Assembly: GCF_007754155.1 (NCBI RefSeq)
Contig: NZ_CP037423.1
Location: forward strand, 6,630,938 to 6,694,937
DNA from: Stieleria neptunia
Lineage (GTDB): Bacteria > Planctomycetota > Planctomycetia > Pirellulales > Pirellulaceae
DNA length: 64,000 nt
Direction of reading: 5' to 3'
Translations under genes and position numbers: made by a program
Shown: positions 1,317 to 15,900 of the stretch, one piece after another
Position numbering within the stretch: the stretch's first letter is position 1
Layout: every line of letters begins with the position of its first letter
Notes under the pieces: generated by a model
The model's database searches: none
What the model was told of the DNA's origin: nothing
The model's input: the letters and a program-made list of their open reading frames with translations, nothing else

Positions 1317-1388
1317 TACCCCGTGGTGTAATTGGCAACACAGCTGGTTTTGGTCCAGCCATTCTAGGTTCAAGTCCTAGCGGGGTAG
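1317..1388 (+). tRNA. tRNA-Gln (anticodon TTG)
   Basis: A full cloverleaf can be drawn. The acceptor stem is taccccg (1317-1323) with cggggta (1381-1387) and discriminator g1388. The D stem is gtgt/acac, the anticodon stem gctgg/ccagc (1343-1347/1355-1359) with loop ttttggt giving TTG at 1350-1352, and the T stem ctagg/cctag (1364-1368/1376-1380). CCA is not encoded. The 3' end from 1376 is the attachment core of the integrative element, so the T-stem 3' strand and acceptor 3' strand are rebuilt from element-borne sequence after integration. Confidence 0.97.
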
Positions 1389-2743
1389 CTTAACGGCAAG
1401 ACACTGATAGCCGATGCGAGACAAACCCAGTTATTTACGGGTTTTTTAGCATCGGCTTTTTTTGTGTCTCGATTTAGCGGCGGATTTCCTGCACCGTCGG
1501 TGGTGGATTCGGTGGTGTTTTTTGAATCCACCACTTCCGCGTCGGTGCCCGTTTTGGGCTTCGCGTCCGGCGGCGTGGTCGTCACGCCCACGATCTTGGC
1601 ACCGTCGGTGACGGCACGGTCGAAACTTGCCTGCATCGTCATCGCGTAGTGCTTGTTGGCCACGTCCGGCGAATTCCCCAGCCAGCTGGTCACGTCCTTT
1701 GCCGGATAGTGGGCGAGCAATTCGGTTTCGCGTGTGGCGCGAAGATTCTGCATCGGCTTTTCCCACGGGACCAACTTGGCGCGGGTGATGATCTTTTCCA
1801 GGGTGGTCAAGATGTTGTCGCTGTGACCGTATCGCGTCTGGACGTACACGGCACCCTCGGGGGCCATTTCGCGGGCGCGGAGAAGGTGGGGACGCAGTTC
1901 GGGGAAAATCGGACAGCGGCGGACGGGCGGGGTCTTGTGGCTTCGCACCATCATCACGTTGTTTGCCAGGTCGATGTCGGCCCACTTTTGGATTCGGGTT
2001 TCGTGGCTTCGCATTCCAGCGTAGCGGGCAAACGCCAAGATGATCCGCCAATCTTCGCAGGGAGCTTTGCGGATGCACGCTTCGATCCAATCGGCCGGGA
2101 CCATGACCAGACGGTCGGAATTACCGGTCGTCGCGGATGCTTCACCGGCAAACGGATTGCGGGTGATGATCTCGTGCTTGATCGCCGCGTTGAAAAACTG
2201 CTTGCTGCGACCGATCCGCCGGCGGACAGTCCCTTCGGCCAAGCCGGTCTTAAACTTCTTCCGCTCGTTGCCCCTGGATTGAAGCCACTTCCGGTAAACC
2301 TCAGCATCGCCGGCGTTGATGTCGTCGATGCGTCGATCGTCGCCAAACTTCTTTCGCAGGCTTCTGGCCGTGATCTCCAATTGCTCAATTGTGCCCGCCT
2401 TACCGGGGTGCTCTTCGATGTAACGGTCGGTCCACTCCTTCAACGTCGGTGCCAGTTCCGGCTCGGGCGTGGGCTCAGGCTCATCGGGTCGTCGCGGCGC
2501 GGCAAGCCCCTTTGCGACCAGTTTGTTGTGAAGCTTGGCGGGAAGGTCAGCGAGCCATTGAGCAATGTCGCGGTCGGGATCGGCACCAACTATTTGCCGG
2601 CCAACAATGTGGTCGATCTTGCTGCCGATGGATTCGGCGGTACGTTTCGCGATCTTGCCGGGATACAGACTTCGTTTCTCGCCATCGGCATCGACGTAAC
2701 GGATTTCGATGCTCTTGTTTGGTTTCTGAATGATCGTTGCCAT
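1370..2743 (-). CDS. int: Tyrosine recombinase / integrase (planctomycete-type)
   Basis: This site-specific recombinase should integrate and excise the surrounding element at tRNA-Gln. I chose the ATG at 2743 (457 aa) because a ggagat ribosome-binding site lies about 9 bases upstream; in-frame starts up to 2758 are possible. The N-terminal part (1-95) is an arm-type region, the core-binding domain is about 100-200, and the catalytic domain about 215-380. Catalytic residues are Arg245 (GMRSHE), Lys270 (SHKTP), Arg335 (NLRATRE) and Tyr366 (ANKHY). The two usual histidines are replaced by Gln332 and Asn357 (WLGNS), as in other planctomycete integrases I recall. The C-terminus runs antisense through the tRNA 3' end (SYPART, stop 1370-1372). 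In the circular form the frame would continue differently (see 9701-9862). Confidence 0.93.
   Translation of the reverse strand: MATIIQKPNKSIEIRYVDADGEKRSLYPGKIAKRTAESIGSKIDHIVGRQIVGADPDRDIAQWLADLPAKLHNKLVAKGLAAPRRPDEPEPTPEPELAPTLKEWTDRYIEEHPGKAGTIEQLEITARSLRKKFGDDRRIDDINAGDAEVYRKWLQSRGNERKKFKTGLAEGTVRRRIGRSKQFFNAAIKHEIITRNPFAGEASATTGNSDRLVMVPADWIEACIRKAPCEDWRIILAFARYAGMRSHETRIQKWADIDLANNVMMVRSHKTPPVRRCPIFPELRPHLLRAREMAPEGAVYVQTRYGHSDNILTTLEKIITRAKLVPWEKPMQNLRATRETELLAHYPAKDVTSWLGNSPDVANKHYAMTMQASFDRAVTDGAKIVGVTTTPPDAKPKTGTDAEVVDSKNTTESTTDGAGNPPLNRDTKKADAKKPVNNWVCLASAISVLPLSYPART
1376..1391. other. attL core
   Basis: This is the 16-bp sequence cctagcggggtagctt, identical to 9863-9878. Identity stops on both sides (t1375 versus c9862, a1392 versus g9879). 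It covers the 3' strands of the T and acceptor stems, the discriminator and three downstream bases. The integrase gene ends just beyond it, so the core is also coding sequence. Confidence 0.9.
1410..1463 (+). terminator. Element-supplied terminator for tRNA-Gln, inside the integrase gene
   Basis: The stem gccgatgc (1410-1417) / gcatcggc (1449-1456) is followed by seven T residues (1457-1463). Inside it, aaaccc/gggttt (1423-1446) can form a second stem. It reads in the tRNA direction and replaces the terminator moved 8.5 kb away by integration. On the other strand the same bases encode the last residues of the integrase (around KKADAKKPVNNW). Confidence 0.7.
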
Positions 2744-2822
2744 CGTGTTCATCTCCACGATTCATCAAAGGATTGAAGGAGCAACGGCGGGCCGGTGATG
2801 AAGCCGGCTTTCGGGAGCGACC

Positions 2823-3218
2823 CTAGCCGTTGCGGTTGCCAGTGTAACGGATCGCGGCGGCACTCCGCAGCAATCTTTCGGTTCGTCGTCGTCGATGCTC
2901 TGCGAGCGGATCGCAGTGCGAACAATGCCAGCGGTCATCGAGCGTTTGCACGTCGCACAATCCGCCGCATGACTTACAGGTCGGCACCCCGGCCGGGTCC
3001 ACTTCGTCCAACGCCAGCGTCGCGGCGGCGTCATCATCCACAGGCAAGCCGTCAGCGAGTCTCAATAGCCGGATGATGTCCGGTTTAGATTCCCGCAGGG
3101 CCACCACGTCATCGTCGGTTAGGGCGTCCGCAGGGGCGTCCAGTTCGATCGCATCGCCGGCGACCGTGACGATAACGCCACGGGCCGACAAATCCGTCAG
3201 CAGGGCCAGGAGCGTCAT
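2823..3218 (-). CDS. Small TubC_N-like / zinc-ribbon protein of the element
   Basis: A 131-aa protein. Residues 1-55 (LLTDLSARGVIVTVAGDAIEL to about KPDIIRLL) resemble the TubC N-terminal docking fold, a small beta-alpha module known from docking in nonribosomal peptide/polyketide enzymes and also seen in replication-linked genes of mobile elements. Residues 80-103 hold two Cys-x2-Cys pairs (CKSCGG and CSHC), a probable zinc ribbon, followed by an Arg-rich tail. Its ATG overlaps the stop of the upstream DUF3987 gene by four bases (3215-3218), so it is translationally coupled to the replication module. A role as adaptor or DNA-binding accessory to the primase/helicase is inference. Confidence 0.75.
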   Translation of the reverse strand: MTLLALLTDLSARGVIVTVAGDAIELDAPADALTDDDVVALRESKPDIIRLLRLADGLPVDDDAAATLALDEVDPAGVPTCKSCGGLCDVQTLDDRWHCSHCDPLAEHRRRRTERLLRSAAAIRYTGNRNG

Positions 3219-5056
3219 AGCGTCACCTTTACCCTTTCGGTTTCGGATTCCGTAGAACCCGGTGCCAATGGTGCCAATGGCGGGGTGGTCGGTGGCTTGG
3301 GTGCCCGACTGTCACCATTGGCACCACTGCCCACCGATTCGCTTTTTAGGTGGGGTGACACCTCGTAGGTGATGCGTCCGCCAACCTTCGGTCGGTCCAG
3401 CTTGGCGATGTGATGGGTTTCTTCGAGCAATCCCAATACAGCATCCAATCGCTCGGGCTCGCCAGTGAATCGACGATGACCGTGTTTGTAGGCGTCGCGA
3501 CGGTCAAATGTGCGTTCATTCGCTCGATCGTTTCGCAACCATCGAAGGAGGTACTCCGCATCGTCACGAGCTTCGTCTGGTGATGCTGCGAGCAGATCCA
3601 ATGCGACGGCGGCGTGCGGGATGGCCCACCGCGCGATTCGTTCAGCCGACTCGATCGTTGCAACGTCGATGTCGAGCGACAAACCGGCGTCACCATGATG
3701 CTGGGCACAATGAAGAACCGCAGCGATGCGCAGGGTTGCCCCGGCCAGCTTTCCGCCCCAATCTTTCATCGGTTCCAATGACCCCGACCCCAACTCCACT
3801 TCGATCGACTCGCAGAACGCTTTGAACGCGACCACTGCGTCCGGCGAGAGTTTCAACCGATGGGGGCATCCATCTTCATCCGGCTCGATCATCGCTAGCA
3901 TCTTGACTGCGTGCGAGTAGGCCAGCGCCACCACGTCGGAGACCGGTGGCGTTGCGATCTTGCGGCGACCAATCCACGATTTCGGAATCGCGTACAGGAA
4001 TCGGCCAAGCAATCCACGGCCACGAAACGCAGGGGTGTCAGCAATGCCTCGAATCACCTCGGGTTGAATCGCCAACGCCATGGTCAGTGCGGGCGATTCA
4101 AGCTTGACCGGTGGACGCCCCATCCGTTGGACGGAGACCGCGTCGCCGCTATGTCCCATCAAATAGACGTTGATGTCGGTGGCTCCGCTTTTTGAATACT
4201 TGCCTGCCATCAAATCGAAAACGCCACCCTCGGCGGACATACTCGCAAGCCGTTCCCCGTTGGCTTCCAACAGAACCGCCAACCGTTCCGATGTGGCATC
4301 GTCGACAATCATCGTCGGCAGTTGGGGCACGCCCCACGTCGCCAGATGCTTGGCGATTTCACGGGCTTCTTGCTTTGCATTTTCCCGTTTGGTCGCGTCC
4401 GCATTTTCAGCTGCCGTCTTCTCCAACTTCGCCAAACGCTTTTCAGCTTGGCGACGGTCGCTCAGTTCCTCTGCCACCGTTTCGGCCAAGTCGGCTTGCA
4501 GCTTCGATTCCACTCCGCGCAGTGGTTTGGTCGCGTCTGCAAAAACTGCACTCTTGCGGTTTGCGGGGTCCAGGATCGCAGCGACGTACAGATTGCACGG
4601 TTCAGACCAGCCGGGCCACGCCTGCACCTCGATACGCTTCGCCAGACAAGCCGAACAAACAGCCAACGCTAAGAGCGCAGCCATATCCGCCGGCGTTTGG
4701 GTCGCTTCGGATTCTTCGGCTACCCAGTTCGCCAGCACAGGCGGTAACGCATCGACCGGGAACACCGGTAGCGGTGGGAGTCCGATCGGTTCCAATTCGG
4801 GCCAATCCCTCGGCGGTGGTGCTTTCGCTGCCAGTGCCAACAACTCTTGCTCAATCGACTCGGGTGATACTTCGGCACCCTCGGTGATCGCGGGCAACTT
4901 CGTGACCACCGCGTCGATGAAACGACGGCGGTCGTCGGCACGGTCGACGAAGAGTCCATCGCGGTGGATTTCCTTTTCGTCAAGGGTAACAACAACGATG
5001 TGGCATCCGTCATATCCGATCGACGGGACGGTCAAAGTCAATTCTGATTCGTTCAT
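3215..5056 (-). CDS. DUF3987 (YfjI-like) replication-associated protein
   Basis: A 613-aa protein of the DUF3987 family, common on plasmids, phages and integrative elements next to primases and thought to be helicase/primase-like. Residues 95-165 match the family entry region (PLPVFPVDALPPVLANWV, then SEPCNLYVAAILDP). The P-loop position reads ANRKSAVF (166-172), a degenerate Walker A of the RKS kind found in part of this family. Residues 180-238 form a charged coiled coil. The middle (AFRGRGLLGRFLYAIPKSWIG) is typical. Start and stop overlap neighbours by four bases each (5053-5056 and 3215-3218), giving a coupled operon. The C-terminal 40 residues are low complexity (Pro/Thr/Ala). Biochemical activity is unproven for the family. 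Confidence 0.85.
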   Translation of the reverse strand: MNESELTLTVPSIGYDGCHIVVVTLDEKEIHRDGLFVDRADDRRRFIDAVVTKLPAITEGAEVSPESIEQELLALAAKAPPPRDWPELEPIGLPPLPVFPVDALPPVLANWVAEESEATQTPADMAALLALAVCSACLAKRIEVQAWPGWSEPCNLYVAAILDPANRKSAVFADATKPLRGVESKLQADLAETVAEELSDRRQAEKRLAKLEKTAAENADATKRENAKQEAREIAKHLATWGVPQLPTMIVDDATSERLAVLLEANGERLASMSAEGGVFDLMAGKYSKSGATDINVYLMGHSGDAVSVQRMGRPPVKLESPALTMALAIQPEVIRGIADTPAFRGRGLLGRFLYAIPKSWIGRRKIATPPVSDVVALAYSHAVKMLAMIEPDEDGCPHRLKLSPDAVVAFKAFCESIEVELGSGSLEPMKDWGGKLAGATLRIAAVLHCAQHHGDAGLSLDIDVATIESAERIARWAIPHAAVALDLLAASPDEARDDAEYLLRWLRNDRANERTFDRRDAYKHGHRRFTGEPERLDAVLGLLEETHHIAKLDRPKVGGRITYEVSPHLKSESVGSGANGDSRAPKPPTTPPLAPLAPGSTESETERVKVTL

Positions 5057-6126
5057 CGTGCGTCCCCCTTCAATGTCAGGGATCGAGCAACAGTGGCGTT
5101 GACGATCGACAGCACGTCATCGGCGGAAGCGCCAGACCGAACCCAATCACGGGCATCGTTGTGACCGTCGGGCGGATAGATAATCCGCACCGATGGGCAA
5201 ACTGTAACCAGTGACGCGGCCAATGACTCCGCACCTCGTTTTCCTGCTTTGTTGGTGTCGTCATCAGCGACGATAACGCACTCGCTCGGGTGCAACCGCT
5301 TTATCAACTTCGTCGTGAACGCGACCGCACCGTTGCAACTGGGGCGACCAACGCAGTCAAAGCCGATTGATAAGATCGCCGCGCAGTCCGTAGGTCCTTC
5401 GGTGATAAAAAGCCGTTCGATGTCCACGGGCAATTGCGACGGCACGAACAAACCAGCCTTGCCACCGGAAACACTCCACTTGCGTCCAGTGTTCATACAC
5501 CGCAACCGCACGCCCACCACGTCGTCGTCGTGATCCCTCATTGGCCACGTCGTCGCGTTGTACTGCCAGGACCAGCCAACATGTAAACGCTTCAACTCCG
5601 TTGCCGGCAACGCCAAGTGATTAGCAAGCCGTGTCCACCACGTCGAGCGCATCGCATGATGACAGTCAATGGCCAAGCGATCCATATCGCCATCGCGCCT
5701 ACTCGATGCCCTCAGCGGCACCGTACGACGCATCGGTGGCGGGGCCGGTCGGTCAACCGCATCGTCTAGTCCCAGCCAGCCAGCGAGCCACCGACAGGCC
5801 GTGGCGGTATCACACGCCATCAACCATCGAAGGGTCGCGAGACCGTCACCCGGTCGCGGCTCAGTGCCAGAATGAAAACAAGACCGGCAGTGCACACTGC
5901 CACGCTGGGCAATGTCGGGAAAGGCGGAAAATCGATCGCGACCACCGCAGCGGGGACAAGGGTGCCCACGTCCGTCCAGCAAATCAGCCGACAGGCCGGC
6001 ATCGTGAAGAACGCTCGACCATTGGCCCATCGAAGCCGTTTTGAGTTCATCGATTGAAGGTCCTCGGTTAGAATGTTGGCGACGGGTCGCACTGTCACCA
6101 AAACTCGGGGGGCGTCGGTTACTCAT
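5053..6126 (-). CDS. Zinc-finger / TOPRIM primase of the element
   Basis: A 357-aa DNA primase-like protein. The ATG at 6126 overlaps the upstream stop in the sequence atgagtaa; a much longer in-frame extension to 6390 lies over that gene and is rejected. Residues 57-83 form a CHC2-like zinc finger (CPRC...HCRSC: Cys57, Cys60, Cys80, Cys83). Residues 238-330 form a TOPRIM domain with Glu243 (ITEGPTD) and the acidic triplet Asp288-290 (VIVADDD). It lies between a DUF3987 gene and a winged-helix-like gene and probably primes replication of the excised element. No helicase domain is fused; the DUF3987 protein may supply that role. Confidence 0.85.
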   Translation of the reverse strand: MSNRRPPSFGDSATRRQHSNRGPSIDELKTASMGQWSSVLHDAGLSADLLDGRGHPCPRCGGRDRFSAFPDIAQRGSVHCRSCFHSGTEPRPGDGLATLRWLMACDTATACRWLAGWLGLDDAVDRPAPPPMRRTVPLRASSRRDGDMDRLAIDCHHAMRSTWWTRLANHLALPATELKRLHVGWSWQYNATTWPMRDHDDDVVGVRLRCMNTGRKWSVSGGKAGLFVPSQLPVDIERLFITEGPTDCAAILSIGFDCVGRPSCNGAVAFTTKLIKRLHPSECVIVADDDTNKAGKRGAESLAASLVTVCPSVRIIYPPDGHNDARDWVRSGASADDVLSIVNATVARSLTLKGDAR

Positions 6127-6406
6127 GACCGGCACCCCCGTTTTTGTTGGTGCCAGCGAGAACCCAAAGCCGTTTCGGATTCGAGTGGTGCTTGGCATTC
6201 CCGCTTTCTCGAAAACCCGCGTACTCAATTTCGCCGTCGCGCCGCATTTGCGCGACATAGGGGCCAAATCCCCGACGGTCGAATCCCTCGGACGTCTTGA
6301 CTGCTTTCGCCGCATCTTCGGCGGCGACTTTCCTGCCGGTCGAAAGCATCCGGCGAAACACGGCCAAGAATTGCCGGATCGCATTTGCATCGTTTGAATC
6401 GCTCAT
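6119..6406 (-). CDS. Small winged-helix-like protein of the element
   Basis: A 95-aa protein I cannot name. The sequence (KVAAEDAAKAVKTSEGFDRRGFGPYVAQMRRDGEIEY-like arrangement, residues 27-62) looks like a small winged helix: a helix pair, then a recognition-type helix and a beta wing. It starts one base after the stop of the excisionase-like gene (6408) and its 3' end overlaps the primase start by eight bases, so it belongs to the coupled module. A DNA-binding or replication-initiation accessory role is inference. Confidence 0.7.
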   Translation of the reverse strand: MSDSNDANAIRQFLAVFRRMLSTGRKVAAEDAAKAVKTSEGFDRRGFGPYVAQMRRDGEIEYAGFRESGNAKHHSNPKRLWVLAGTNKNGGAGHE

Positions 6407-6407
6407 C

Positions 6408-6632
6408 TCAGCAGCCCTCCGATGATTCGGTGGTGCTGCCGTTGATGTGATCCATCAAAACGGCGGTTCGGAATCGAACACTGCCCCCGATGACGACTTT
6501 GGCGTCGGCCGGAAGGGTTCCTTCGAGCAACCAGCGGTCAATCGTCCGCGTCGTGGTCGCATAAAATTCTGCCGTCTGTTTTTTGGTCAACAGCGGCGGA
6601 TACGCTTGGGGCATCGATGCTGATGCGGCCAT
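6408..6632 (-). CDS. AlpA/excisionase-type helix-turn-helix protein
   Basis: A 74-aa MerR-like helix-turn-helix protein of the AlpA/excisionase type. Residues 13-60 carry the pattern (LLTKKQTAEFYATTTRTIDR, then WLLEGTLP and VRFR) in which the first helix pair reads DNA and the RF pair ends the wing. Such proteins act as recombination directionality factors or as transcription activators of element genes. A good ribosome-binding site (gagga) lies about 9 bases before the ATG. It is the first gene of the five-gene module and is preceded by a spacer with a TGTGA/TCACA dyad. Confidence 0.85.
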   Translation of the reverse strand: MAASASMPQAYPPLLTKKQTAEFYATTTRTIDRWLLEGTLPADAKVVIGGSVRFRTAVLMDHINGSTTESSEGC

Positions 6633-6728
6633 GTGGCAAATCCTCGTAAAAAGTCACGAATGACTCGCACGTCGACAAACGCAGTCGGGTGCGACGAGGG
6701 TCTTTATCCAGACGGTTTCTGTGATGGC

Positions 6729-6742
6729 TGTGAGTAATCACA
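6729..6742. promoter_or_regulatory. TGTGA-N4-TCACA dyad upstream of the excisionase-like gene
   Basis: The sequence tgtgagtaatcaca is an inverted repeat about 97 bases upstream of the excisionase-like start. A second, perfect dyad (ctgtgaatcttcacag, 6825-6840) lies inside the last codons of the 733-aa gene. The spacing and shape suggest operators for one regulator, but no promoter boxes are clear. Confidence 0.35.
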
Positions 6743-6818
6743 ACCAACCGACCAGACGGCCAAACCGGACGCTAACAGACAAGCGAAAACACCAAAAGAA
6801 AATTTCAGAAATCGAATT

Positions 6819-9020
6819 TCAAAACTGTGAATCTTCACAGTCGCCGGGGGCGTCGATGTCAACTTCCAGCTTTTTTGCGTATTCTAAGAGTTTGCGGACC
6901 CAATCGTTGTGTGTCCGATCGCTAAACCCGAACTTTTTAAGACGTTGCCGTTCGGTCGATCGGAGTTTTTCCCATTCGCGCTCAGTGCCCGAATAATCGA
7001 TGTCGTCGAGAAACCAGCGTAAGCGATCGCCAGTTTTGCCTTTTCCGCCTTCCCGCCACTTCGCGTACAGCCTTGCGTCGCGGATGTATCGCGGTAAGTC
7101 CCAACGTTTTATGTCGGTGATCGGTGCGGGCACGTGATCAGCTTTGTCTTTCGTTGCGGTATTCTTAATATTGCCCGCGTGCGGCGTTGCAGCCGAATCA
7201 GCAGTGCCGATGTTGGGCGTCGGTACGGAATCGGCGCAACTCGCTTCCAAGTCGCGTGCCCGCAATTCGTCTGCCCGCTTTTCTCGCCATGCTCGCAACG
7301 CACTTAGTACTTCTTCGCCACCAACTTCGTCGCGGGAATAACTATCGCGATGATGACGACAGAACGCTTCGCCACCGCCAACCCGAAGTACCTTCAATCC
7401 TTCTTCATGGGAAAACACAAACGGCGTCCAGCCAGCTTCGTCGGCCAGCTGATTGATGTTTTTTAGATACTTTGCGTCCGAATTGGTCCCGATCTTCCAT
7501 TTAGAAATCAGCCCGTACGCCCCGCCCTTAACGGTTTCCATTGCCCGGATGCAAACGTCAAGTTGTAACCATAGGTCATCGTCGCAGACTTCTGGTCGCA
7601 ACGGTTGCTGAATGCTTGTGATCGTATTCACCGGCCCGGTTCGTCGCTCAATCTCGCTTTGGTAGATGTCTTGCTCGCGAGCGAGTGCCGTGGCGTGTGA
7701 GCCGTGGATCTCTCCACAACTCTGTTTTCGCCTGACCGCTCGCAGCAACGGATTTACGACTCGCCAACGTTCAAAAAATTGATTCACGTCGTGTTCGGCT
7801 GCCATCACGATTCCGTAGATAGGCTCGGATGGCTTGCCAACGCTCTCCACAATTGCAGCGACGTCGTCGGCCAGCGATTGAAGTGAGTTCCTAACCCGTC
7901 GGCGACTCCGGCCAAATTCAGACACTACATCTGTTGCTATTTCAAAGGCTTCATCGCTAAGAATCTCCCAGTTCGTTGATCGGTCTTTTGCAATTTCCTG
8001 TTGGCGCAGATCGATAAACTTTTCGCATTCGACCAAGAAAGCGCTCACAGGATCGACTTCGCGATATTCGCCAGTCGGGTTAGGGTCCGCATAGCTTGCG
8101 CCAGACCCTCTATGGTCGGAAAAGTAAGACGAACGGTCGTCGGAACTGACTGCCTCGGTCGTGGTATCGATTGACGAATCAATGGTTAACTTGCCATTGA
8201 CGATGTCAGCGAGTATCCCAGCTGCGATTGAAGAGGAACGCAAATACTTATCAACGGTCCAGGTGAATCCAGCATGGTGGATGCTCCCAATCGAGTGGGC
8301 ATGACGTGCACCGTCGATCGCATCTTCCGATCGTTCGGCGTCTGGCACAAGCATTCGATGCACGGCATCGTCGGCTATTGCAGATTCGCGCCCTACTCCG
8401 TGAAATATGCCTGAGCTTTCGAGCAAGTGCAAAACACCCAGCCAGCGCCGCAACCCGGTAATGCCCTCAGTGGCTCCAATGCCGAGACTCGATAGACGAA
8501 TTCCCTCGCACGATTTCCCGGCTACTTCGCCAAACCTCAATGCATCTTGGGTGGGCGGGCGATATGTGCTAACCGCCGGAACCGGCACGACAATCGACCA
8601 ATTGTTTGTCGGCAGGTCGGTCCCCCAATTCTTCCCTTTTACTTCGACCAGCCTTTCAGATGATTCGAGTAGTCGGTTTGTTTCTTTTTCGGTCCGTAAG
8701 TTTTCAATACTGAGATAGCAAGATACGATTGTGTTGGGCGTACCCGTGATCGACATAACGCTCAACGACTCGGGCATGTTGGTCATTGATGCGATGCCTC
8801 CACCCAGCGGTCGCCACAATTCATCACAATTATATCTGTCGGAATGTCCGTCATCACTGCGACGTATTTTGTCAGGCTGAACAACCAACCGTAACGCTAC
8901 TTCTCCCTCATTCCGTAGTTGCTCAAAATCTTGTTGTAGGGTTTCAAATTGACGCGCTGTTGTCTTCGGCAAAACGCTTTGCAAATACTTGATCGCTCGA
9001 ATCCGAATCGTTGCCGGCAT
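6819..9020 (-). CDS. 733-aa protein of unknown function (element cargo)
   Basis: I do not recognise this protein. The ATG at 9020 has a good ribosome-binding site (aggag, about 9 bases upstream). No signal peptide or membrane segment is visible, so it is probably cytoplasmic. The N-terminal third has short beta-like stretches (LSVMSITGTPNTIVSCYLSIENL). The middle is helical and charged; residues about 350-420 look like a long helical region. The C-terminal 130 residues begin with a variable, Thr/Ala-rich linker and end in a basic helical block (KWREGGKGKTGDRLRWFLDD, then TERQRLKKFGFSDRTHNDWV) that could bind nucleic acid. It is the only large gene not tied to replication or integration, so it is the cargo candidate. 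Its composition seems more AT-rich than the flanking chromosome. Confidence 0.75.
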   Translation of the reverse strand: MPATIRIRAIKYLQSVLPKTTARQFETLQQDFEQLRNEGEVALRLVVQPDKIRRSDDGHSDRYNCDELWRPLGGGIASMTNMPESLSVMSITGTPNTIVSCYLSIENLRTEKETNRLLESSERLVEVKGKNWGTDLPTNNWSIVVPVPAVSTYRPPTQDALRFGEVAGKSCEGIRLSSLGIGATEGITGLRRWLGVLHLLESSGIFHGVGRESAIADDAVHRMLVPDAERSEDAIDGARHAHSIGSIHHAGFTWTVDKYLRSSSIAAGILADIVNGKLTIDSSIDTTTEAVSSDDRSSYFSDHRGSGASYADPNPTGEYREVDPVSAFLVECEKFIDLRQQEIAKDRSTNWEILSDEAFEIATDVVSEFGRSRRRVRNSLQSLADDVAAIVESVGKPSEPIYGIVMAAEHDVNQFFERWRVVNPLLRAVRRKQSCGEIHGSHATALAREQDIYQSEIERRTGPVNTITSIQQPLRPEVCDDDLWLQLDVCIRAMETVKGGAYGLISKWKIGTNSDAKYLKNINQLADEAGWTPFVFSHEEGLKVLRVGGGEAFCRHHRDSYSRDEVGGEEVLSALRAWREKRADELRARDLEASCADSVPTPNIGTADSAATPHAGNIKNTATKDKADHVPAPITDIKRWDLPRYIRDARLYAKWREGGKGKTGDRLRWFLDDIDYSGTEREWEKLRSTERQRLKKFGFSDRTHNDWVRKLLEYAKKLEVDIDAPGDCEDSQF

Positions 9021-9700
9021 TGGCGAGACTCCTATTCATCAGTGAATCGGGCGGACCCAGCCGCCGGCGTCGAATAGGAAACGGCGACGGCGGGGTCCAG
9101 CAGCGGTAGCAAACCGCCTACCCGTCAATGATCGCGGGACCAACCGCGACCGGTTCAATGCCGGGAGGTGAATCCGGCATACGTATTGTCGGGGGCATAA
9201 CGCGACAGGGCAATAACACAGACCCTGCTTATTCGGTTGGCTTGGACCCTGTCCGACTTCACGATGACGTTGTAGATGCTTCGCCGTATTTTTCGCCAAC
9301 AATCAACCCACCCACCTCGGATTTACATCGCGGGTGTTTGTAAGAATGCTCCGATGACTGGGCGAAGCCCGGCACAGGGGCCCTTTCGCGAGGACCCGCT
9401 CAATGTCCGCAAAGTGATTTTGCAGCACAGACTAACTAAACCGGGCAACGGTGGTCGTGACTGCTCGCGCGCCAGGAAAACACCGGCCCCCCCATACCTA
9501 CGTGGTGGTGGTGGCTATGATGCCGCGTTGTAAGTTCGGCGAGATTCGTTCGGAGACAAACCCCCGCGACCCCCTCCCGTCCACTGGAAGGACCCAAAAC
9601 ACTGCGGGTCCTTTCCGTTGTTTGCGACAGCGGTTTCCAACTGTCATTGCCGCAACAAATCCAACCATCCATCCATCGCATGATCGTGATGACCGCAGGG
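9021..9700. other. 680-bp gene-free region of the element with hairpins
   Basis: No convincing reading frame is present. Several short inverted repeats are visible: atgccgg/ccggcat near 9160-9182 and ggaaggaccc/gggtcctttcc at 9586-9595/9606-9616. The region lies upstream of the 733-aa gene and next to the right attachment arm. It could hold the promoter of that gene, a replication origin or a small RNA; none is shown. Confidence 0.5.
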
Positions 9701-9862
9701 CTATGTCGATCGCACTCTCAGTTGTTCCAGCAGATCATCTAGCTGGGCATCGTCCAAGTGTTCGCGAATGCATTCGCTTACCATCGCGGCGGGAGTGGTG
9801 GATTCGGTGGTGTTTTCATCGCCACCACGATTCTGCCCCGTGTTTTCCGCAGCCGGGGAAAC
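9701..9862 (-). other. Alternative integrase C-terminal tail, used only when the element is circular
   Basis: Reading leftwards from the attR core, the frame that is in phase with the integrase at attL stays open for 53 codons and ends at 9701. The tail is protein-like: a Asn/Gly/Thr stretch (with NTTESTT), then an amphipathic acidic helix (MVSECIREHLDDAQLDDLLE). In the integrated state nothing starts it. After excision the integrase frame would pass through the identical core and continue here, giving about 509 aa instead of 457. The phase match is exact: 1376 and 9863 are the same codon position. Confidence 0.6.
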
Positions 9863-9878
9863 CCTAGCGGGGTAGCTT
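9863..9878. other. attR core
   Basis: This is the second copy of cctagcggggtagctt. It is followed by gaaaggccttttgcattgagcagaaggcttttttt-type sequence, probably the original downstream terminator of the tRNA before integration. Only the last 13 bases of the tRNA are present, so this is not a second tRNA gene. Confidence 0.9.
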
Positions 9879-9881
9879 GAA

Positions 9882-9913
9882 AGGCCTTTTGCATTGAGCA
9901 GAAGGCTTTTTTT
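9882..9913 (+). terminator. Probable original tRNA-Gln terminator
   Basis: The stem (gcctt ... aaggc) is followed by a run of seven T residues and lies directly downstream of attR. A closely similar hairpin lies at 15536-15566, downstream of another gene, as part of a dispersed repeat. Confidence 0.5.
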
Positions 9914-10207
9914 GTTGGCAGGGCGGTCCCGATCAGTCTCGGCGGAGACGGTAAGCGCCCAGGAGCACCATGGGTTAGGTGGGCCAGCGGGGCGACGCCG
10001 TGGCCATGTTTCAGGGAAAGAGCTATCGCCCGATTCTTGGATCCACTGGCCGTAGATGATCCGCGATCCGCCGGGACAAGCGTCTTGTCTCATGGGGCCC
10101 AACGCGGGCTTAGCAGGCGCGTGACTCCCTCGTGACGCGCGAGGTGTGTCCTGCGTCGGTTTTCCTTTTATCGAAAGACAGTCCTGAATACTGCCTTGCA
10201 GTGCCAG

Positions 10208-12046
10208 CTACTGATCCAGGCGGGCGAGGCGGCGGCGAAGCCGATCTCGCTCTCGACGGATGTTGTCAGCTTCACGCTCCTTTTGCCGGTGGGCCCGGAT
10301 CGACTCCGGATGCGCTGTCCCCCATGCGTCAGGACGCAGCGCGGCATAGTCGCGACTGCCTGCGAGAAGCTGGTCGAGTACGTCTTCCAAGTACGCCGCC
10401 ACATCCAGGTCGTTTCGTATCGCGCTGCTGACGACCGTCATCAATGTCGCCGTACGATAACCCGATGCAAGACTGCCAAGAAAAAGCCAGTTCTTGCGAC
10501 CCAGTGCTACTTGCTTCATCAGCTGCTCGCATGAGTTGTTGTCGATCGGGATTTCCCCGTCTTCAAGGTGAGCCGTCAGTCCTTGCCATTGATTCAAGAT
10601 GTAACTTCGCGCATCGCTGATCTTGTCACTACTCAGCACGTCCATCATCTTCATCTGGAGGTACTCGCGCATCTGGCCCCAAAGGGGAGCCGATTGCTTT
10701 CGGCGAAGTGTCAAGCGTTCTGCTGGCGACAACTCTCGAGCTTCGTCTTCGACATCATAAATCAATCGAAACAATCCAAGTAAATGCTTTGCATGCTCCG
10801 CGTGATTGTCTAGCGCAGCTTCCACCTTCCGACGCGCATGGGCCGCGCAAGCGGCATGAACGATCAATCCGTTTGATCGTATGTAAATCCCCGTGTTCGC
10901 TCCGTAGCAGTCTCCCAATAGAGTTCCCGTATACTCGCTATCGACTAAAAATTGGTCCGGCCCATCACGGTGACGACTGACCGTAAAGTCAAACACGTTG
11001 ATTGGAATTTGAACGCCTCGGTAGGCCCACATCTTTGCCGTGATGCTTTTGAGCCCTTTCGACTTGGCTGCTGCAAAAACTTCCGCAGCACGCCGACCCT
11101 TCGGATCGTCCTCGCGTGCTTCGGGAATGTCTTGCGGCAACAGTAAGCGGATCGACGTGTCGTCACTTCCGATGCAGCTGTCGGTGCGAACCAAGTCAGC
11201 AAGCCACTGCACGAACGGCCGGAGCACGCGTTCGGCAGCTTCTTGAAGGTTTAGTAGCGTACTGCGTGAAAGGTAAAGGCCGCACTCGGCGAACATGTCC
11301 TCTTGACGATAGATCGGCAGATGGTAGCCAAGTCGATTGGCAATGACCGAGGCAGCGAATGAGGTGTCGTAGCGATCGCCTTGAATCAGCGCCGCGGGGC
11401 GTGGGGCCTGCAAAATACCGGCGCGGGGATCCTCCGGGTGAACGTACTTGGGGAAGATCTTTCGAATGATATAGGCCGCACCCCGGGTGAAGTGTGCCGA
11501 TTCGACCACGTCTTCTCCGATCCGCACCAAGCCTTCTTTTTCTTCGTCGCTTAAGTCGACAATCACTTCCTTGCGCGGCAGGCTGTCGGGAAAACGCTCT
11601 TCACGCTTGCGTCGCTTGGGCGGCTTGTTGCGTTTGCCGGCTCGATCATTTTCTTCGATCGCCTGCTTGATGCCTTCACGAGCGTCGTCGATTTCTGCTT
11701 GACTGGCGAATTCGAACTTCAGCTGGTCGTCGTCTTCAAAGCGTTCGCTCTGGCGGCCAAAGATGCGACGGATCAAAGCGTCGAGTTCGTCTTGCTTTTT
11801 GGAGAGTTGCTTTCGTAAGTCCTCGTTCTTCGATTCAAGGTCCTCTTTGGCCGCAGCGAGTGACTTGGCGTCTTGGACGAGAGACTCGTTGGTGGTAGCA
11901 AGCGATTGGTTGTTTACAGCGAGTGAATCGACTTTGTTGGTGAGTGACGCATTGGTGGCAGCAAGCGATTCATTGACGGACTCAAGCGTGCTGTTTTTCG
12001 CACGCAGGGCTTCGATTTCGCGTTGAAGTTGCTTGAGCTTGTCCAT
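10208..12046 (-). CDS. tnpC: IS66 transposase TnpC
   Basis: The 612-aa DDE transposase of the IS66 element. The first 90 residues are an extended coiled coil built on near-repeats of SLAATNESL. Then come the IS66 zinc-binding/linker region and the basic stretch AGKRNKPPKRRKREE (about 132-146). The catalytic core carries the DDE residues in GSDDTSIRLL, LLGDCYGANTG and DNNSCEQLMK, followed by the family ending VALGRKNWLFLGS. The frame is intact. About 257 bp separate its stop from the left inverted repeat. A hairpin with a U-run lies between tnpB and tnpC and may limit expression. Confidence 0.96.
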   Translation of the reverse strand: MDKLKQLQREIEALRAKNSTLESVNESLAATNASLTNKVDSLAVNNQSLATTNESLVQDAKSLAAAKEDLESKNEDLRKQLSKKQDELDALIRRIFGRQSERFEDDDQLKFEFASQAEIDDAREGIKQAIEENDRAGKRNKPPKRRKREERFPDSLPRKEVIVDLSDEEKEGLVRIGEDVVESAHFTRGAAYIIRKIFPKYVHPEDPRAGILQAPRPAALIQGDRYDTSFAASVIANRLGYHLPIYRQEDMFAECGLYLSRSTLLNLQEAAERVLRPFVQWLADLVRTDSCIGSDDTSIRLLLPQDIPEAREDDPKGRRAAEVFAAAKSKGLKSITAKMWAYRGVQIPINVFDFTVSRHRDGPDQFLVDSEYTGTLLGDCYGANTGIYIRSNGLIVHAACAAHARRKVEAALDNHAEHAKHLLGLFRLIYDVEDEARELSPAERLTLRRKQSAPLWGQMREYLQMKMMDVLSSDKISDARSYILNQWQGLTAHLEDGEIPIDNNSCEQLMKQVALGRKNWLFLGSLASGYRTATLMTVVSSAIRNDLDVAAYLEDVLDQLLAGSRDYAALRPDAWGTAHPESIRAHRQKEREADNIRRERDRLRRRLARLDQ

Positions 12047-12104
12047 GTACAGAAGACTAAAAGCTTCTCGAAATCGCGCAATAGCAAATCACCGTCTGGG
12101 CAAG

Positions 12105-12140
12105 AAAAAAAGCAAGTTTTCTTCGCCGAAGAAAACTTGC
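12105..12140 (-). terminator. Hairpin plus U-run between tnpB and tnpC
   Basis: A 13-bp perfect stem (gcaagttttcttc / gaagaaaacttgc, 12112-12124 with 12128-12140) and a 3-base loop are followed on the minus strand by seven T residues (12105-12111). This looks like a rho-independent terminator inside the transposase operon and would attenuate tnpC transcription. Confidence 0.7.
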
Positions 12141-12178
12141 TCCCAAGTGTGGTCCGTCGTCACTGCTTCCGCGGCAGC

Positions 12179-12526
12179 TTACGCTGCCTTGAGCCGTTTA
12201 CGTCTCTTGGCATTTTCGATTGAGATTCCACCAAGCAGCATCGCCAAGTCGGCTGCGTCGAGCTTGACGCTCGCCTCGCCATCTTGCCTGATTCTTTCAA
12301 AGGTGCCTTGCTCCAGACTTTTGTACCACACCGCCATTCCATCGCGGTCCCAATAGAGAGCTTTGAGTTTGTCCTGGCGTCGATTGATAAACAGGAACAA
12401 GCTTCCGTCGTTTGGCGTTTTGCCTAGCTCGTTTCGCACGATGCCGGCCAGGCCCGAAAAACTCTTTCGCATGTCGGTCGGCTTGGCGTAGAGAAAAATG
12501 CCGCCAGTGGTTGGTAGTGCGATCAT
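12179..12526 (-). CDS. tnpB: IS66 accessory protein TnpB
   Basis: A 115-aa IS66 Orf2 protein. The ATG at 12526 overlaps the tnpA stop (atga, 12523-12526). Family motifs are visible: IFLYAKPTDMRKSFSGL near the N-terminus, then LFLFINRRQDKLKALYWDRDG and a C-terminal Lys/Arg-rich tail. Its exact function in transposition is not established, although IS66 elements usually need it. Confidence 0.94.
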   Translation of the reverse strand: MIALPTTGGIFLYAKPTDMRKSFSGLAGIVRNELGKTPNDGSLFLFINRRQDKLKALYWDRDGMAVWYKSLEQGTFERIRQDGEASVKLDAADLAMLLGGISIENAKRRKRLKAA

Positions 12527-12852
12527 TGCTGCAACTCGCTTGGTTGTGGTGCCAACCGGTCGACGATGATCATCAAGCTGTTGGCGTCGCAGCAATCAAG
12601 CTCGATCTGCGTGCCACAGGGAAAGCGGACAGTGGTGCCGCCAATTTGGGGGCGCGGCTGTTCGATTTGCACGGCAAGAAACGCGTCGCTCTGATCTGCG
12701 TCGCCCTGCAGCCTTTGTCGCCATCGATAAAACGATGCGGTGGAGACTCCGTGCAAATCGCAAAAGTCGGAGACCGCAAGATCGGACTGTTCGTGAAGTT
12801 GGATCAGCCGCGACCAACGTTGGCGAACGGCGGGGTCTGGCAAGCGAACCAT
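12523..12852 (-). CDS. tnpA: IS66 accessory protein TnpA (helix-turn-helix)
   Basis: A 109-aa IS66 Orf1-type protein. The ATG at 12852 is preceded by aggaggt at ideal spacing; an in-frame start at 12885 is less likely. Residues 5-50 form a helix-turn-helix (RQRWSRLIQLHEQSDLAVSD, then FCDLHGVSTASFYRWRQRL) like other IS66/IS3 OrfA proteins. The C-terminal half is variable, as is usual. It is the first gene of the IS66 operon. Confidence 0.92.
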   Translation of the reverse strand: MVRLPDPAVRQRWSRLIQLHEQSDLAVSDFCDLHGVSTASFYRWRQRLQGDADQSDAFLAVQIEQPRPQIGGTTVRFPCGTQIELDCCDANSLMIIVDRLAPQPSELQQ

Positions 12853-12936
12853 GGAAACCTCCTGGTTACGTGAGTGAAAACCCACCAGCCTACGCCACGC
12901 GCCAAGAATGGTTTCCTCGGGCGCTTACCGGAGACG

Positions 12937-15530: not shown

Positions 15531-15900
15531 CGAATGGCCTTTCCCATTGAGCAGAAGGCCTTTTTCGTTGGGGAGTGGCGATGGCGACGGTCTTGAGCAA
15601 GTCTTCTCAATCATTCTGCCCCGAATCATTCTGCCTCCTCTCTCTCCACGATGCCCGCTTGGAATAGGGGGAAGGAAGAGGTAGGAAAATTGTGGGTAGG
15701 AAAAGAAGCCCTGTGCAATATGGCGGAGTCACGCTCGTGACTGCGGCCGTCCCTTTCCTACTCATCATTTTGCTACCTCTCACAACGGATTGTGCCGGAA
15801 GCCAGCGACCGGAGTGGCTGGCAGAATGATGGCTGGCAGAATGATGTTCAGCGCGGAAGTGACGCGATCGACATCGAACTGAGAATGTCGAGTGTCTTGC
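15531..15900. repeat. Dispersed repeat family R6, copy B
   Basis: This is the uninterrupted counterpart of copy A. It holds the hairpin with cattgagcagaaggcc and a T-run (15536-15566), tcttgagcaagtcttctcaa, two attctgcc strings, atgcccgcttggaa, then ccggaagccagcgaccggag and a tandem tggcagaatgatg. It ends where a gene fragment begins. Confidence 0.75.

Follow-up and report, generated by a model that had tools for sequence, protein, structure and literature searches.

A planctomycete integrative element with its attachment site inside the integrase gene, and a predicted exchange of the integrase C-terminus upon integration

Background

In the review PMC6070905, the attP site of phage Mx8 is described as lying within int, such that integration creates a new 3' end of the gene and modifies the specificity of the enzyme without inactivating it, an arrangement termed there a 'molecular switch'. 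For the suicidal integrases of SSV1-type archaeal elements, the review PMC8371274 presents int(N) and int(C) as inactive pseudogenes, the catalytic part being found in Int(C). In the integration-dependent immunity of mycobacteriophage BPs, it is the repressor gene that contains attP, and an ssrA-like tag is borne by the viral form of the repressor, which is the longer one (PMC4557955). Here, we describe a small element integrated in a transfer RNA (tRNA) gene of Stieleria neptunia, whose integrase gene crosses the attachment core. The element lies in a 64-kb stretch of contig NZ_CP037423.1, which is the whole stretch of DNA analysed (hereafter the window) and to which all coordinates refer. 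Among the papers listed in searches of the open-licence literature, none described such an arrangement in planctomycetes.

Results

The element occupies a tRNA-Gln(ttg) gene (1317..1389, plus strand; ARAGORN), whose 3' end it restores. Two exact copies of a 16-bp core, CCTAGCGGGGTAGCTT, at attL (1376..1391) and attR (9863..9878; no strand assigned to either), bound 8.5 kb of DNA, the identity ending at both edges of the core. The attL copy is contained in the integrase frame and, up to position 1389, in the tRNA gene, while the attR copy stands in the same codon phase. The integrase gene (1370..2743, minus strand) runs through the attL core into the tRNA and stops at 1370, so that the integrated form terminates in ...LSYPART, residues read from the core and the antisense of the tRNA. 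This form measures 457 amino acids (aa) from the ATG at 2743, with the MAT... start common to its relatives, or 462 aa from a GTG at 2758. At attR, a frame of 53 codons plus stop is open on the minus strand (9701..9862), and in-silico circularisation yields an integrase of 509 aa which continues for these 53 codons past the core and ends at 9701; in this join, the tail is attached to the integrase in the circle only. A prior sequence-only reading of this DNA had claimed that the core is identical and equally phased at attL and attR, the frame crossing attL and open for 53 codons at attR, and the two lengths of 509 and 457 aa, all of which we could reproduce.

Several lines of prediction place the integrase among the tyrosine recombinases, namely a PHROG integrase match (E = 2.9e-27), the Arg...Arg...Tyr motifs, and a catalytic fold matching those of lambda Int (the best Foldseek match, E = 8.6e-10) and Tn1549 Int; the match to Pfam PF00589 lies below the cut-off, and recombination activity is a predicted one. 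The core is read some 85 residues past the presumed catalytic Tyr 366. In the model of the integrated form (mean predicted local distance difference test [pLDDT] score of 81), most of the body, which extends to around residue 380, is confident, apart from a drop near 362-367. The linker between body and core is disordered over most of its length and includes a single helix (435-448) of low confidence. Integration would yield a different C-terminus and leave the catalytic domain intact and together with the N-terminal part.

The host genome, a single contig of 10.98 Mb, contains only one match to the window integrase (E up to 0.001). A query made of the joined flanks was searched across 14 genomes of the genus. 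In four of them (loci L184, L186, L189, and L190), this tRNA was seen, by eye, to lead straight into terminator-like sequence, and three of the four (G127, G156, and G172) gave zero matches to the window integrase, as expected of empty sites. A terminator-like sequence is also present immediately right of attR (9879..9919, plus strand) and is probably the tRNA's own terminator.

Taken alone, the open tail of the window is unremarkable. A 53-codon open frame arose in 22% of Markov sequences, and in 7% once the phase requirement was imposed; with a chance of about 0.07 the window by itself proves little, and comparative data are needed.

The survey of the same family covered 199 genomes, 164 of which had a match; contexts were picked by hand, long contigs being favoured. 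It took in 82 distinct integrase loci, some of them fragments; three loci devoid of an att pair (L031-L033) stand outside this set, and L034 was not analysed for att sites. A tRNA is crossed at 62 of the 82 loci, and 37 loci, counting the window, display a tRNA-anchored att pair crossed by the integrase frame. The correct phase at attR was open for 43-107 codons in 36 of these 37 pairs, and was the longest frame in 36 of them as well. By comparison, only 14 of 74 wrong-phase frames reached at least 40 codons (Fisher's test against the 36/37 in the right phase, P = 1.5e-16, a value that ignores shared ancestry). The targets were tRNAs of nine identities (Gln, Asn, Arg, Leu, Val, Met, Ser, Glu, and Lys), and a homologous tail is present in many elements across these nine.

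The wider survey of the class Planctomycetia comprised 297 genomes, 198 with a match to the homologue P0076, and provided 39 usable hand-picked contexts from eight families other than that of the window. A crossing att pair was found for 15 of 42 integrases, in six families, and 12 of the 15 tails extended over at least 40 codons in the right phase versus 10 of 30 wrong-phase frames. The phase trend extends to these other families, albeit with more noise. Altogether, 48 of the 52 crossing att pairs from family and class, at many tRNAs, exhibit a long right-phase tail. Because the relatives show it, the phase pattern of the window is real, and the comparison indicates that the arrangement is not a quirk of this locus. 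These statistics are those of this class; in a control with integrases from another lineage, which was set aside, the matches listed were mostly short proteins of about 300 aa resembling XerC/XerD.

Some loci carry more than one insertion. In L146 (11498-12418), a tandem insertion in tRNA-Glu, a remnant integrase reads in frame through the middle core into the tail of its neighbour, and in a tandem array in L075 (11968-13491) the second integrase appears to read the neighbouring tail out of phase. In L080 (5153-5635, strand as fetched) and L104 (11207-11554), integrase remnants close to the window family directly adjoin the attR of a different element; their position points to repeated use of one tRNA.

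The tails themselves were compared using a profile built from 36 same-family tails. All 12 class tails scored between 7.1 and 30.5 bits, as opposed to 3.5 bits at most for same-family wrong-phase peptides; since one profile fits them, the tails form one family. A combined profile, trained on these same tails, detected seven more at loci for which no att pair had been counted. The tail reads ...ESTTPAAMFAECIRDHLDDTELAELLTRLQ in near kin and ELHQLWDRLDESARRDLLAVARGL in distant kin, and none of the four tails tried had a significant Pfam match. In the closest pairs, synonymous divergence (dS) exceeds non-synonymous divergence (dN): dN was 0.30 and dS 1.73 between the window and L036, with 17, 14, and 23 substitutions at the three codon positions, and dN was 0.23 and dS 0.54 between L066 and L067. 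Conservation is located in an internal two-helix stretch, and this helix pair sits beyond the arm-type repeat described below. The last four residues of 37 tails, inspected by eye, showed no common motif and no ssrA-like end.

The sequence-only reading had described the end of the tail as an acidic amphipathic helix. The acidic character is borne out in the window (11 D/E versus 4 K/R). As to the helix, AlphaFold predicts for the homologous tail of P0034 a hairpin of two helices (468-480 and 483-502; pLDDT of the block about 56-72, overall predicted template modelling score 0.31), a model of modest confidence. The amphipathic part was not borne out: the hydrophobic moment exceeded that of shuffled sequences (P < 0.05) in only 5 of 48 tails, and for the window P was 0.40.

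Tails are also found naturally joined to integrases. Of 204 database homologues, 120 were listed, and in 15 of these 120 the integrase, a core-like stretch, and the tail follow one another in one frame (P0013, P0017, P0029, P0033, P0034, P0039, P0040, P0043, P0050, P0051, P0062, P0068, P0076, P0084, and P0114); seven of the 15 pass the tail profile (E up to 1), and the other eight were judged by eye. For P0034, P0043, and P0040, the longest contigs encoding them measure 9-10 kb. Many other listed homologues terminate in a tRNA-antisense reading, such as SYPART, RQDSNL, or GLEPA. Tandem junctions are one possible source of the fused proteins, since the remnant in L146 reads through the middle core in frame. 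The fused P0076, used as query against the 297 genomes, was not itself recovered there; two region searches aimed at additional fused forms returned four and one proteins (query included), none of them a new fused one; and tblastn of P0034 against plasmid and phage collections (1e-5) gave no match. As for viral contigs, a first scan detected no relative and a second one 16 loci, five of which were inspected (L114-L118): their integrases, of 386-400 aa, lack the tail, and no tRNA occurs in the stretch. No terminal repeat was seen in the two whole viral contigs (L115 and L116); the other three (L114, L117, and L118) are cut stretches, uninformative in this respect.

Candidate arm-type sites flank the core. 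An exact 22-bp repeat, GTGGTGGATTCGGTGGTGTTTT, is found at 1500..1521, inside the integrase frame, and again at 9795..9816, inside the tail frame (no strand assigned). Direct repeat pairs, in which the repeat is often itself a doublet of about 11 bp, beat ten shuffles in 31 of 37 elements. Twenty-four cases are strong; in these, the copy on the integrase side is about 90-135 bp away from the core (49 bp in one case) and the opposite copy 34-63 bp away. In 19 of these 24, the reading frame differs between the two copies, which argues that the repeats are DNA sites; both copies of the window are read in the same frame. Their natural reading would be that of arm-type sites for the integrase.

The left arm also encloses, antisense within the integrase frame, a hairpin followed by a T-run (1409..1462, plus strand; -24.2 kcal/mol). 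Such a plus-strand hairpin is present in 29 of 37 elements versus 3 of 37 control regions, and it probably replaces the tRNA's own terminator. In a consensus terminator scan of the window (loops of up to 8), this hairpin was not listed and the region showed no excess of terminators.

Seven minus-strand open reading frames (ORFs) lie between the cores. Besides the integrase, these are a small ORF with a TubC_N-like match in the Pfam scan (2823..3218), a DUF3987 helicase-like protein (3215..5056; Pfam E = 1.7e-90), a primase-like ORF with a Zn ribbon and a Toprim domain (5053..6390; Pfam and PHROG scans), a small ORF weakly matching an uncharacterised PHROG (6119..6406), a small helix-turn-helix protein that is a candidate excisionase (6408..6632; PHROG excisionase/regulator E = 3.2e-05, Pfam HTH_17 below the cut-off), and a 733-aa ORF with no family match (6819..9020). 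As no element ORF scanned against Pfam and PHROG matched a structural phage protein, the element looks like a small integrative element or satellite and was not classed as a prophage.

Other features of the surroundings were recorded. A 16-bp exact repeat, CTGATGAATAGGAGTC (minus strand), occurs at 1259-1274, in host DNA upstream of the tRNA, and at 9027-9042, where it falls at the likely ribosome-binding site of the 733-aa ORF; these are its only two copies in the 11-Mb genome. Between the tRNA and an ORF at 23-955, there are about four copies of a 29-bp tandem repeat (945-1064). An IS66-type element (9951-12928) sits in the right flank of attR; its ends match each other, its target duplication is the 8-bp sequence CGGAGACG, and its ORFs span 10208-12046, 12179-12595, and 12523-12885. 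Further on, the terminator located right of attR recurs in degenerate form at 15531-15570; no clear core accompanies this copy, which may be a relic of an older insertion.

Discussion

We favor the explanation, with a probability of roughly 0.7, that the integrase bears the tail when made by the free form of the element and lacks it when made by the integrated form, and that re-excision is damped once the tail is lost. It starts from the observed anatomy, phase, tail homology, and fused natural proteins. In outline, attP, with the core and arm-type sites, would lie within the 3' part of the integrase gene. In a circle formed in the host, this gene would be intact and translated into an integrase whose C-terminus is extended by a small helical tail. 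At the tRNA, strand exchange would then cut the gene at the core, leaving the catalytic part at attL, where it would end on a few tRNA-antisense codons and be translated in this shorter form, and stranding the tail about 8 kb away at attR; excision would restore the tailed enzyme. The tailed enzyme would most likely be the integration-proficient form, and tail loss would restrain re-excision unless the excisionase is made. The switch put forward in the sequence-only reading stands as far as the predicted difference in C-termini between the two forms is concerned, and has gained homologous tails and fused natural proteins; that these C-termini steer integration versus excision is what we infer. 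Neither the Mx8 precedent nor the arm-type repeats within the frame had featured in that reading.

A number of results weigh against this explanation. No sequenced circle of the window element was found, and neither circle nor protein has been observed for it. A crossing att pair is missing at 45 of the 82 family loci, where contexts were fetched at 20 kb, such that larger elements or those at contig ends could not reveal one, and for 27 of the 42 class integrases. Of the 15 crossing pairs from the class, no more than 10 have their longest open frame in the right phase. Relatives whose attR arm has no long open frame in phase, named beforehand as what would speak against the idea, amount to four of 52 (L093, the family exception, with 21 codons; L158, with 7; L166 and L174, with 0), a minority that does not overturn it. 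At two loci the gene falls short of the core: in L053 (16873-18075, strand as fetched), a further att pair beyond the 37, the integrase stops before the tRNA and core, so that gene and attP core do not overlap, and in L154 it stops just short of the core, though attR carries a tail-like frame. To these are added the modest confidence of the predicted tail hairpin, the negative hydrophobic-moment test, and the strong divergence of the tails, with dS saturated in many pairs.

A broader proposal, to which we give somewhat less than even odds, is that of a large, Planctomycetia-wide clade of tRNA-integrating elements in which the integrase, by recombining, cuts off its own conserved C-terminal hairpin, a regulatory domain that integration erases, the resulting memory of the integrated or free state setting the direction of the reaction.

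The alternative that survives best, although unlikely, dispenses with a switch: attP came to lie in the integrase gene, both forms of the enzyme are alike, and the frame is a neutral relic that is merely tolerated. The core and arms alone would constrain the DNA, and the four crossing att pairs without a long tail fit this; set against it are the in-phase conservation of the tail past the arm repeats, which extends across families, and the excess of synonymous over non-synonymous change in the closest pairs. It is a good deal less probable that the tail is a degradation signal making the free enzyme unstable and the integrated one stable. The geometry does parallel that of BPs, whose repressor gene contains attP and yields a longer, ssrA-like tagged product in its viral form (PMC4557955), but a role of this kind is less likely here because the 37 tail ends share no motif by eye, and conservation resides in the internal two-helix stretch. 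Very improbable, in turn, is selection for openness on DNA grounds only, that is, for arm sites without stop codons: the arm repeats do fall inside the tail frame, yet the wrong phases of the same DNA attain 40 codons in just 14 of 74 cases, and the two conserved helices are encoded past the repeat. Finally, a chance open frame, or the fossil of an earlier element's integrase end, is hardly credible, for despite the 7% chance computed for the window alone and the tandem arrays with integrase remnants (L146, L080, and L104), an open tail is shown by 48 of 52 elements at many tRNAs, and these tails, homologous to one another, are also known as parts of fused integrases.

Should direction be controlled by the tail, as the favored explanation would have it, these elements store their integration state in their own protein. 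Related enzymes that do and do not carry the tail form many natural pairs, at different tRNAs, through which the contribution of the C-terminus to directionality can be tested. For annotation, the C-termini of integrases taken from integrated copies are partly tRNA-encoded, and the true 3' end of an integrase gene may sit at the opposite end of the element.

Comparison with known systems

To our knowledge, the lambda int gene is not split by attP. The likeness to heterobivalent integrases of the lambda type resides in the fold match, which includes lambda Int, and in the combination of a core with arm-type repeats.

With the SSV1 type, the element shares an att site inside the integrase gene, which is split by integration (PMC8371274). 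In contrast to that type, the catalytic domain of the window integrase would stay whole and the tail alone be lost, so that it does not count as suicidal. With BPs, it has in common an attP in a coding gene and an integrated product that is shorter at the C-terminus (PMC4557955); there, a repressor is switched via a degradation tag, whereas here the gene is that of the integrase and no tag-like end was seen.

The element also resembles the Myxococcus phages Mx8 and Mx9, in which attP is inside the int frame and integration gives int a new 3' end (PMC6070905). In Mx8 Int (AF396866), we read a GLEPV stretch resembling a tRNA-antisense reading, followed by about 110 residues. Searches of Mx8 Int against planctomycete proteins gave a best blastp E-value of 0.068, the integrase profile scored 3.4 bits, and the tail profile had no match; by these comparisons, the window integrase and tail are not detectably homologous to Mx8 Int. 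Whereas Mx8 is a phage, the present element is small and bears replication-like genes, no structural gene having been recognised among its scanned ORFs; the planctomycete tail, unlike the Mx8 case, recurs across a bacterial class. Given the Mx8 precedent, the principle is already known, and the planctomycete version is a variant of it.

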